Of a DNA stretch of 64,000 bases, positions 23,651 through 55,805 are shown one piece after another (the first letter of the stretch is position 1; every line of letters starts with the position of its first letter). The stretch comes from Deferribacter desulfuricans SSM1. Its GTDB lineage: Bacteria; Chrysiogenota; Deferribacteres; Deferribacterales; Deferribacteraceae. Under the pieces are notes generated by a model. It was given only the letters and a program-made list of their open reading frames with translations, made no database searches and was not told where the DNA came from. The DNA lies in NCBI RefSeq assembly GCF_000010985.1, contig NC_013939.1, forward strand, positions 434,001 through 498,000. The letters are read 5' to 3'. The position numbers and the translations under genes were made by a program.

Positions 23651-24241
23651 TTAAATATTTCGCATTATAAAAACTACTTTACCAATTATTTCGAAATCGT
23701 CGGTCTCTTCCACTATTATATTTTCATAAAAAGGGTTTTCAGGTTTCAGTATGATTGAGTTTCTATTATAATAATAAGTTTTAACTGTTACTTCTCCATT
23801 TAATCTAAAAACGCCGATATCACCATTTTTAAGCTCTTTGGTGAGTTCTACTAAGACTAAATCTTCGTCAAAAATTTTCTTTTCGATCATACTGTCGCCT
23901 GTAACTTTTAAAAAGAAATATTTATCTGTGTCTAAAAATTTTTCTAAGTTGATGTAAGTAAGAATATTTTCTTCAGAAAGAATTGGATATCCTGCTGCAA
24001 CTTTTCCTAAAACAGGGATACCTTTTTTGTGGGTGTGATTGACTATTTCTATTAATCTTGCCTTTCCATGCCCTCTTCTTATTACCCCTTTTTCTTCCAG
24101 CCTATCGAGCATTTTTTTTGCTGATGCGGTGGATGATAGTTTTAAATGTGTACAAATTTCTCTTATGGTTGGGTAATAACCGTATCTGTTTTTAAAACTT
24201 ATAAGAAAATTGAGCATTTGTTCTTGTTTTTTCGTAAGCAT
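23651..24241 (-). CDS. lexA: SOS repressor LexA
   Basis: A 196-aa repressor. The N-terminal winged helix-turn-helix spans ~1-65 (GYYPTIREICTHLKLSSTASAKKMLDRLEEKG). The autocleavage site is A83-G84 in KVAAGYP; the catalytic pair is S117 (TGDSM) and K154 (VTVKTY). The start is ATG 24241 with GAGG upstream; an in-frame ATG 45 bp farther upstream would add a poor lysine-rich leader. Convergent with murB, divergent from dinB. An operator of type CAAAC-N4-GTTTG sits in the dinB promoter at 24454-24469, but none is visible in the ~200 bp next to lexA. Confidence 0.96.
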   Translation of the reverse strand: MLTKKQEQMLNFLISFKNRYGYYPTIREICTHLKLSSTASAKKMLDRLEEKGVIRRGHGKARLIEIVNHTHKKGIPVLGKVAAGYPILSEENILTYINLEKFLDTDKYFFLKVTGDSMIEKKIFDEDLVLVELTKELKNGDIGVFRLNGEVTVKTYYYNRNSIILKPENPFYENIIVEETDDFEIIGKVVFIMRNI

Positions 24242-24319: not shown

Positions 24320-24394
24320 GAGATTGCTTCAGCAACTTTTGTTGCTTCGCAATGACAAATTTTGTGGTCATTGCGAGCGTTAGTGAAGCAATCT
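24320..24394. repeat. Palindromic cruciform repeat, copy 1
   Basis: Outer arms GAGATTGCTTC and GAAGCAATCT enclose inner arms TCGCAATGAC and GTCATTGCGA; between the left arms is a separate small hairpin AGCAAC-TTTT-GTTGCT. Outside that hairpin it is identical to the copy at 55730-55805 but for one base and the terminal C. It lies between divergent lexA and dinB. The GATTGCTTC/CGCAATGAC words resemble short palindromic repeats scattered through many bacterial genomes; no ORF is inside. Confidence 0.9.
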
Positions 24395-24447
24395 GGAAAA
24401 TTTGATGATTTTTTCTGTGTAGCAACCTGTATTTGTTTAAATTTCCC

Positions 24448-24476
24448 TTGAAAGCAAACATTTGTTTGTTTATAAT
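24448..24476 (+). promoter_or_regulatory. dinB promoter with SOS operator in the spacer
   Basis: TTGAAA (24448-24453) and TATAAT (24471-24476) are exactly 17 bp apart. The spacer holds GCAAACATTTGTTTGT (24454-24469), an inverted repeat of the CAAAC-N4-GTTTG form, close to the CGAAC-N4-GTTCG box of Gram-positive LexA. LexA bound there would cover both promoter elements. The same sequence recurs at 44710-44725. Confidence 0.85.
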
Positions 24477-24507: not shown

Positions 24508-25710
24508 ATGATAATGTGTATAGATATGGATGCATTTTTTGCTTCTGTGGAGCAAGCATCAAATCCACTTTTAAGAGGAAAGCCTGTTGCTGTGATAGGT
24601 GCCAAAGAGCGCACTGTGGTGACTACAGCCTCTTATGAGGCTAGAAAGTATGGTGTTAAGACAGGTATGAGTAAGTTTGAGGCTATGAGGTTGTGTCCTC
24701 GTATAGTTTTAGTGGTAGGAAACAATCGCAAATATACTTATGTGTCAAAGCAGATATACAATTTTTTGCTTACTATTACTTCTGATGTTGAGATGTATTC
24801 TGTGGATGAAGCCTTTCTGGATCTTTCTTCTGTTAATTTGCCCCCTGAAGATGTGGCTTTTATGATCAAAAGTTTTATAAAGAGCAAATTTGGGATTACC
24901 TGCTCTATAGGGGTCGGTTCTAATAAACTTATTGCGAAAATGGCAAGTGGAATAAATAAACCAGATGGTTTCTGTTATGTTCCAAGGGAGAAAAATAAAG
25001 ATTTTATAGATAGTTTTCCCATTTCTAAGATTTGGGGGGTAGGTAGAAGACTTGCAAAAAGGTTTGAAAATTTAGGAATTTTTTCTACGAAGGATTTAAG
25101 GGATTTTGGAGTTGATAGTCTTGTAGAGATGTTTGGGAAAAATGGGTATAAGCTTTATGCTATGGCAAATGGTGAATATTTTGAAGGGGTAAATACAAAT
25201 GAAGAGCCTGTTAAATCCATTGGACATAGTATGACTTTACCGATGGATATATTTAATATGGATGAGTTATCACCATATTTACTTCAGTTGTGTGAAATGG
25301 TTTCGGAAAGAGCAAGGCAAAACAGAGTCTCTGGGAAAAGGTTATTTGTGGTGATTAGAGATACAGATATGAAATCTTTTGGAAAAAGTTATACATTACC
25401 TTTTTTTACTTCAGCCACACATCATATTTACGATTTTGCCAAAAAAATAATTGAAGATTTTGATATTTCAAAAGGGGTCAGATTGGTGGGGGTATCTCTT
25501 GGTAAGTTGGTTCATGATGCTGTTTGTTTGCAAAATATATTTGAAGATGAAAGGAAAAGTAAGCTTTATCGTGCGATGGATAAAATAAATAAGAAATATG
25601 GTAGTTTTTCTATCTCTTATGCATCTATTTTAAAATGTAGAAGAAAAGGTGCCCTTACCATTTCTCCAGCCTGGAAACCTGATGGTATACGCAATGTCAA
25701 TGTGAAATAG
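24508..25710 (+). CDS. dinB: DNA polymerase IV (Y family)
   Basis: A 400-aa translesion polymerase. Catalytic carboxylates: Asp6 and Asp8 in MCIDMDAFFASVEQ, and Asp-Glu in YSVDEAFLDLS at ~103. Fingers/palm: TTASYEARKYGVKTGMS; thumb HhH: IWGVGRRLAKRFENLGI; little finger domain from ~235. The C-terminus shows no evident QLxLF clamp-binding motif. The start is ATG 24508, five bases after AAGGGGA; an upstream TTG (24481) lies at the predicted transcription start and is rejected. Expression is expected to be DNA-damage inducible through the operator in its promoter. Confidence 0.95.
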   Translation: MIMCIDMDAFFASVEQASNPLLRGKPVAVIGAKERTVVTTASYEARKYGVKTGMSKFEAMRLCPRIVLVVGNNRKYTYVSKQIYNFLLTITSDVEMYSVDEAFLDLSSVNLPPEDVAFMIKSFIKSKFGITCSIGVGSNKLIAKMASGINKPDGFCYVPREKNKDFIDSFPISKIWGVGRRLAKRFENLGIFSTKDLRDFGVDSLVEMFGKNGYKLYAMANGEYFEGVNTNEEPVKSIGHSMTLPMDIFNMDELSPYLLQLCEMVSERARQNRVSGKRLFVVIRDTDMKSFGKSYTLPFFTSATHHIYDFAKKIIEDFDISKGVRLVGVSLGKLVHDAVCLQNIFEDERKSKLYRAMDKINKKYGSFSISYASILKCRRKGALTISPAWKPDGIRNVNVK

Positions 25711-43806: not shown

Positions 43807-44412
43807 TTATTTTATTATTATACCATCTTCTGGGTAGCCGTATTTTGACCAGAAACCGATCTCTCTTTGATTTGAAAATACTATTTTTTTAATCCATTTA
43901 GCACTTTTGTATCCATACCTGTCGGGATAGAAAAGTCTTAAGGGGAACCCGTGTTTTTGATCTAAAGGTTTATCGTTAATTTTTAAAGCCAATATGTAGG
44001 AATCTCGGATTTCTTTTATTGGAATTGACTCTGTGTATTTGTTTCCATAGCAGTAAAAGTTTATATATTTTGCAGAGTAAAAAGGCTTAGTTATTTTAAT
44101 TAAGGTGTTTAGGCTAATCCCATCCCACTTTACACCTGGAACTGTCCACCCTTCGACACAATTGAAATCGCTTGTGTATGAAGTGTTTATTAAATTTAAA
44201 AGATCATTATATACTAATGTTAATTTGTTTTCGATAAGACCTGTAATTTTTAGATGAAATTTTTGAATATCAATATCTGGTGTTTTATCCTCAACAGTTC
44301 TTATCTTCCATCTGCTAATTATATCAGTAATTTTTGCAAAACTGGTTATTTTTGAGGATACAATAAATAATCCTGTTAAAAATGTTTGTTTTAAAAATGT
44401 TCTTCTATTCAT
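43807..44412 (-). CDS. Small molybdopterin-dependent oxidoreductase (MsrP/sulfite-oxidase fold)
   Basis: A 201-aa protein with a twin-arginine start (MNRRTFLKQTF) and hydrophobic stretch, so probably Tat-exported with its cofactor already inserted. The sulfite-oxidase molybdopterin domain fills the rest; the Mo-ligand cysteine is Cys85 in SDFNCVEGWTVPGVKWDG. PLDQKHGFPLRLFYPDRYGYKSAKWIKKI is the usual end of the domain. It is smaller than MsrP (~300 aa) and lacks a dimerisation domain. Substrate unknown. It lies 37 bp downstream of the small SOS-box gene on the same strand; TTGACA on the minus strand (44442-44447) may give it its own promoter. Confidence 0.88.
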   Translation of the reverse strand: MNRRTFLKQTFLTGLFIVSSKITSFAKITDIISRWKIRTVEDKTPDIDIQKFHLKITGLIENKLTLVYNDLLNLINTSYTSDFNCVEGWTVPGVKWDGISLNTLIKITKPFYSAKYINFYCYGNKYTESIPIKEIRDSYILALKINDKPLDQKHGFPLRLFYPDRYGYKSAKWIKKIVFSNQREIGFWSKYGYPEDGIIIK

Positions 44413-44449: not shown

Positions 44450-44698
44450 TTATTTCTCATCGATAGCTATCAATTTCCATTCGAGGTTATTTTTGCTGTA
44501 GGATATTTCGTATATATTCACCCCTTCAGTTACCGTGAATTTAAATATGGTATCGCTCCCTTTCCTTTCTTTCCATTGATAAATCCGCTCTTTGATTAAT
44601 ATTTTGCTGTTTTTGTATTTAAACCATACAGGTTTTATCTGCCCATTTGTTCCAAATATTGCACCAACTTTTATTTTTTCGTTTAACATTACCAACAT
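44450..44698 (-). CDS. Small protein of unknown function behind an SOS-type operator
   Basis: An 82-aa protein. The start is ATG 44698, five bases after GGAGG; upstream TTG (44713) falls in the operator. No signal or membrane helix. Pattern: KIKVGAIFGTNGQIKPVWFKYKN, IKERIYQWKERKG, then FTVTEGVNIYEISYSKNNLEWKLI, i.e. a beta-rich fold with conserved-looking P-x-W-F, W-K-E-R and W-x-L. This resembles the DUF6504-type small domain as I remember it, a weak match. The operator directly upstream is the same as that of dinB, so expression in the SOS response is predicted. Confidence 0.72.
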   Translation of the reverse strand: MLVMLNEKIKVGAIFGTNGQIKPVWFKYKNSKILIKERIYQWKERKGSDTIFKFTVTEGVNIYEISYSKNNLEWKLIAIDEK

Positions 44699-44709
44699 AT
44701 TTACCTCCA

Positions 44710-44725
44710 GCAAACAAATGTTTGC
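44710..44725 (-). promoter_or_regulatory. SOS-type (LexA) operator, second copy
   Basis: GCAAACAAATGTTTGC on the + strand, an inverted repeat with 7-bp arms. Its complement GCAAACATTTGTTTGC matches the dinB operator at 15 of 16 bases. It lies between the promoter below and the SD of the 82-aa gene, overlapping the expected transcription start. Confidence 0.82.
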
Positions 44726-44731
44726 TTTTTA

Positions 44732-44760
44732 TTGATAGCTCATATCCTGTATAAATTCAA
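44732..44760 (-). promoter_or_regulatory. Promoter of the SOS-box small gene
   Basis: On the minus strand TTGAAT (44755-44760), a 17-bp spacer, then TATCAA (44732-44737). The start of transcription would fall at the edge of the operator at 44710-44725. Confidence 0.5.
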
Positions 44761-55729: not shown

Positions 55730-55805
55730 GAGATTGCTTCCGTAACTTAAGTTGCCTCGCAATGACAAATTTTGTGGTCATTGCGAGCGTTAGCGAAGCA
55801 ATCTC
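55730..55805. repeat. Palindromic cruciform repeat, copy 2
   Basis: Same architecture as 24320-24394: outer arms GAGATTGCTTC / GAAGCAATCTC and inner arms TCGCAATGAC / GTCATTGCGA are identical; the small left hairpin reads CGTAACTTAAGTTGCC instead of AGCAACTTTTGTTGCT and still folds. The right part GCGTTAGCGAAG differs by one base. It also lies between divergent genes. Confidence 0.9.

Follow-up and report, generated by a model that had tools for sequence, protein, structure and literature searches.

A LexA-type operator in front of a small gene

In the window, i.e. the whole stretch of 64,000 nucleotides that was analysed, a gene for a protein of 82 amino acids (44450..44698 including the stop codon, minus strand), hereafter called X, is preceded by a LexA-type operator. 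This operator, GCAAACATTTGTTTGC (44710..44725, minus strand, exact), is located approximately 11 nt 5′ of the ATG of X. A probable promoter (44732..44760, minus strand) was read by eye and consists of a -10-like TATCAA (44737-44732) and a -35-like TTGAAT 17 nt upstream. As the operator starts about 7 nt after TATCAA, the transcription start expected for X falls within it, in agreement with the original prediction. The weak -10 sequence of X was not reported by an automatic consensus promoter scan. About 20 kb from X, the SOS repressor gene lexA (23651-24241, minus strand; Pfam LexA_DNA_bind 5.6e-16, Peptidase_S24 2.3e-32) and dinB, encoding the Y-family DNA polymerase IV (24508..25710, plus strand; Pfam IMS 1.8e-48, IMS_C 1.3e-22), adjoin each other in divergent orientation. 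The gap between them contains the LexA-type operator GCAAACATTTGTTTGT (24454..24469, plus strand), which takes up the spacer of 17 nt that separates TTGAAA from TATAAT in the dinB promoter. It had been claimed that the sites of X and dinB agree at 15 of 16 bases and that both are palindromes of the CAAAC-N4-GTTTG form; both statements hold.

The complete genome, which comprises two contigs of 2,234,389 and 308,544 bases (2.54 Mb), was scanned for the operator by pattern searches, as had been suggested together with the original prediction. Allowing up to one mismatch, GCAAACATTTGTTTGC was detected in three places (X, dinB and contig 2), all of which are intergenic. The assertion that there is no third copy is thus correct for the window, where no match with up to two mismatches was found beyond the X and dinB sites, but not for the genome, since a third exact copy lies on contig 2 (262594-262609). 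According to Markov models of orders 1-3, 0.005 exact copies and 0.22 copies with up to one mismatch are expected per 2.54 Mb genome, and the latter amount to approximately 0.006 sites per 64 kb. Matches with three mismatches are near noise (34 versus 16 in the reversed control, 159 versus 135 in a second scan) and were therefore left out of regulon membership. Upstream of recA no such operator was found in the genome of the window, the best match agreeing at 8 of 14 positions. The best match upstream of recA of the congener is weak (10 of 14 positions).

The third exact copy (L180, 7595-7610) belongs to the second replicon (308 kb). Downstream of it lie a gene for 245 aa without a known family and, preceded by a good ribosome site, a frame of 10 codons. 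It is possible that the gene behind this operator is a plasmid SOS gene. An imperfect-palindromic element, AGATTGCTTC...GCAATGACA...TCATTGCGAG...GAAGCAATCT, occupies positions 24320-24395 between lexA and the dinB operator, and a second copy resides at 55730-55805 of the window. Since the short lexA-dinB gap of the congener is devoid of such an element, lexA may have become separated from its own operator when the element inserted. On the other side of the X gene, a gene with a molybdopterin oxidoreductase domain (43807-44412, minus strand) follows on the same strand at a distance of 37 nt. As no terminator was found in this short gap, the gene may be co-induced with X. No such neighbour of X was found in the congener.

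Conservation of the operator and of the gene order

Conservation of the operator before orthologues had been named beforehand as a test of the original prediction, and one congener genome (G001) was used for this comparison. The congener keeps the site before X in the form GCGAACATATGTTTGC, at a nearly equal distance from the start codon and following TTGAAA and TATAAA separated by 17 nt. Its lexA and dinB genes diverge around ACAAACATTTGTTCGC, and the other two sites with up to one mismatch lie inside ORFs. With both sites kept and the remaining ones of the congener inside ORFs, the conserved chromosomal LexA regulon supported by the data probably consists of lexA, dinB and X. The marks of a LexA (SOS) regulon, namely a LexA box in the promoter, its conservation before orthologues and an encoded LexA, were all found. 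In both genomes, X is separated from lexA and dinB and has a yigZ-like gene as neighbour.

A search of 60 genomes revealed X orthologues in 23 other genomes of the Deferribacterales, nearly all of them alignable from the same start Met, which supports the 82-aa frame. Outside the window's genus, the compact order lexA-X-dinB on one strand is present in all 22 X-bearing genomes. X overlaps the start of dinB in 20 of these operons, by 4 nt in 16 of them, and frequently overlaps the end of lexA by approximately 20 nt. The SOS control postulated for X therefore gains support from two sides, the operator kept in the congener and the position of the gene inside a lexA operon in the relatives. In 18 of the 22 operons lexA is preceded by a palindrome (GCGAACANNTGTTCGC-like or AGAACANNTGTTCT), mostly 25-45 nt before the start codon and often after a -35 of the TTGAC type; the full form in the relatives is GCGAACANNTGTTCGC. 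In the other four operons, a scan of 400 bases revealed no clear operator. In the f8 genomes (L042, L043, L044), the palindrome of the operon has the form AGAACAAATGTTCT. The LexA box of these bacteria, CAAAC/CGAAC-N4-GTTTG/GTTCG, differs from the known Geobacter type, and we take CAAAC, as found in the window, to be a probably drifted CGAAC box. From the comparison, the order thus gains a LexA box; the searchable literature yielded no publication on this element for the phylum. Because the operon is present in all other families with X, it is likely to be ancestral, and the split in the window's genus would be derived.

X as a standalone ImuB-C protein

Pfam and NCBIfam scans with X and its orthologues gave only chance-level matches (CSL4_N, DUF3024 and others) and thus missed X, even though the family is known. 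A direct hmmscan of X did not reveal a DUF6504 match, a DUF6504 search of its own genome yielded nothing and a PDB sequence search with X nothing meaningful. A profile of the 24 X orthologues of the order (A1) finds 24 homologues outside the order, each of which adjoins dinB-like and/or lexA genes. Together with ImuB-C of Deinococcus deserti they make up a distant set of 25 sequences, of which 18 match DUF6504 at E 0.1 or better. By profile-profile comparison, X is linked to the distant homologues (E 4e-24) and to the DUF6504 set (E 3.6e-9, probability 96), and the distant homologues are linked to the DUF6504 set (E 2e-18). DUF6504 (PF20114) is the Pfam name for ImuB-C, and the D. deserti ImuB-C is annotated as DUF6504 and passes the Pfam cut-off. 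These links make X a well-supported standalone member of the ImuB-C superfamily as far as its sequence is concerned, a membership that, given the missing direct match, is based on profile-profile and transitive links. The linkage to a mutagenic polymerase and/or lexA that characterises ImuB-C was seen in all 22 X-bearing genomes of the order that do not belong to the genus and for all 24 distant homologues. X also shares the ImuB-C traits of approximately 80 residues, an all-beta structure (as predicted), a C-terminal W and basic residues.

Strands without any helix are predicted along the whole length of X, and its AlphaFold2 model has eight strands with a mean pLDDT of 94.7. A fold search of the model against the PDB gave no match at E 0.001. 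This result is compatible with the published description of ImuB-C as a beta-barrel without close PDB neighbours (PMC12926913, 2026). Among viral proteins, X has its best fold match in a 100-aa siphovirus protein that is uncharacterised (TM 0.63, E 0.005). X is rich in lysine, and K32, K36 and K53 are nearly invariant or invariant in the alignment of the 24 orthologues. The W of the last strand occurs in most sequences and is replaced by C in the three f8 genomes. The P-x-W and W-x-E motifs pointed out in the original prediction are invariant across the order, and the weak likeness to DUF6504 suspected there is supported by the profile comparison. By contrast, the role of X can no longer be called wholly unknown, because standalone ImuB-C proteins in lexA-imuB-C-polY operons have been published, this phylum included (PMC3765255, PMC6511836).

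The C-terminal tail of DinB

DinB ends in a tail similar to the N-terminus of RecA, KLYRAMDKINKKYGSFSI, followed by ISPAWKPDGIRNV. Compared by eye, KLYRAMDKINKKYGSFSI resembles the start of the RecA of the same genome, KALELAMSKIERDFGKGAV. The RecA-like stretch is followed in most relatives by ISPAW[RK]P-x-G-x-R, a conserved tail. A Y-family partner with catalytic domains and a RecA-NT-like tail, as expected of a PolY-ImuB-C-RecA module, is thus encoded in the window. In the order, X was never seen without dinB. All 24 X-bearing genomes possess the RecA-like DinB tail, in three of them with a shorter and differing end; these are the f8 genomes. X is missing from 12 genomes of the order that do carry dinB; three of them have the tail and nine do not. 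The co-occurrence of X and the tail gave a Fisher p of 2e-6, a test that is not independent, as most of the nine tail-free genomes belong to one clade. In three X-free relatives that were examined, lexA directly adjoins a tail-less dinB. The three tailed genomes without detectable X (G028, G037, G041; L165, L166, L167) have no lexA adjacent to dinB, and they indicate that X is not obligatory for the DinB tail.

Proposed role of X

We assume, with a probability of roughly 0.85, that X is an SOS-controlled, LexA-repressed ImuB-C subunit of the DinB translesion polymerase, whose operon was split and which kept an operator of its own. Judged by sequence comparison, the regulation of X by LexA is well supported; from the data we infer LexA binding, induction, protein contacts and function. 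LexA would repress X and dinB by way of the palindrome at each of the two promoters, until DNA damage leads to cleavage of LexA and to the joint production of X and DinB. X could then act as the small subunit, without catalytic activity of its own, of a translesion polymerase that is SOS-induced and has DinB as its core, most likely binding DinB, probably at the C-terminal tail, and RecA. In this way, it may help to place or activate DinB at stalled forks. The binding to DinB and RecA is suggested by the tail co-occurrence and by the finding that the RecA-like ImuA′ is bound by ImuB through its RecA-NT motif, a contact which is stabilised by ImuB-C (PMC11791113). The 4-nt overlap of X and dinB in the relatives suggests translational coupling and a fixed stoichiometry. 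In the window's genus, the ancestral single operon lexA-X-dinB would have been broken up and X moved to a new site, where its own operator may have preserved co-regulation with dinB. A more detailed version, to which we give somewhat less than even odds, is that X is a subunit of a DinB/ImuB-C/RecA polymerase without a role for DnaE2 and binds the ISPAW[RK]P-x-G tail, that the matching operator replaced the operon linkage in Deferribacter, and that the conserved chromosomal LexA regulon is restricted to lexA, dinB and X.

A different function of the same protein has to be considered. According to Aravind et al. (2013), ImuB-C might bind DNA, recognise damage and recruit repair proteins generally, without being a DinB-specific subunit. 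That ImuB-C genes also occur beside Ku, ligase, SplB and SRAP genes (PMC3765255) is in line with this, as are the lysine-rich, predicted all-beta nature of X and its position away from dinB in the window's genus, the congener showing the same split. However, X always lies next to dinB in the order outside this genus and is never present without it, and the overlap with dinB, if it reflects translational coupling, would rather fit a dedicated partner. We therefore consider a general recruiter rather unlikely.

Small genes next to lexA, such as YneA, SosA and SulA, are also known as SOS cell-division inhibitors, and X, which is SOS-controlled and directly downstream of lexA in the relatives, could be taken for one of them. 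The homology to ImuB-C, the consistent linkage to dinB and the predicted all-beta domain with strands throughout and no helix render this very improbable. Even less credit is due to the idea that positions 44710-44725 form a transcription terminator or that the inverted repeat found there arose by chance. On the plus strand, the stem of the palindrome and a T-run do read as a terminator, yet no convincing plus-strand gene end lies just upstream. The terminator was rejected because the congener keeps the palindrome without the T-run. Chance is hardly compatible with a site that is present at both SOS promoters, although merely 0.005 exact copies are expected per genome.

Comparison with known systems

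Among the closest parallels to X is the lexA-imuB-C-polY operon known in Geobacter (PMC6511836 citing Jara et al. 2003; PMC3765255). ImuB-C was defined by Aravind and colleagues from Geobacter GSU0042, with frequent operons containing dinB and lexA (PMC3765255), and Deferribacteres were named in 2019 as carriers of this polymerase group (PMC6511836). In both cases a beta-rich protein of approximately 80 aa forms an SOS-controlled operon with lexA and an active Y-family polymerase carrying a RecA-NT-like motif. In the window's genus, by contrast, X stands apart from lexA and dinB, with a separate operator in front of it. The standalone lexA-linked ImuB-C of PMC8072749 belongs to the same domain family as X by profile comparison, but its partners are an inactive polymerase and DnaE2, while X has as its partner a DinB with matches to the Pfam IMS domains, and no dnaE2 belongs to the operon. 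The C-terminal domain of ImuB in the ImuA-ImuB-DnaE2 mutasome is of the same superfamily and is fused to the Y-family domain after the RecA-NT motif, so that this ImuB is a natural fusion equivalent to DinB plus X. X, on the other hand, is a separate protein, and its Y-family partner appears active. YolD/YqjX, the small partners of the Gram-positive UvrX/YqjW polymerases, work alike as SOS-induced Y-family partners, and in Staphylococcus aureus a YolD-type partner is sometimes distant from the polymerase and yet keeps a LexA site (PMC6511836). However, none of the 24 X orthologues matches YolD (PF08863), and ImuB-C was reported to differ from the SH3 barrel of UmuD′ and YqjX (PMC12926913).

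Hence, the ImuB-C family, the lexA-imuB-C-polY operons and the polymerase group in Deferribacteres are already known; new are the split of X from the operon with its own operator kept and the co-occurrence of X with the DinB tail. Of all components of bacterial mutasomes, ImuB-C is understood least. In this order it occurs in a compact operon lacking dnaE2, where comparing the presence of the gene with that of the polymerase tail leads to a binding hypothesis that can be tested, and the detached X with its own LexA site independently indicates that X and DinB have to be produced jointly.

The genome of the window possesses two genes for the alpha subunit of DNA polymerase III. The second one (L179, contig 1, 889030), with an open frame of 940 aa, is absent from the congener; according to a published survey, one species of the Deferribacteres has two DnaE1 (PMC3919608).
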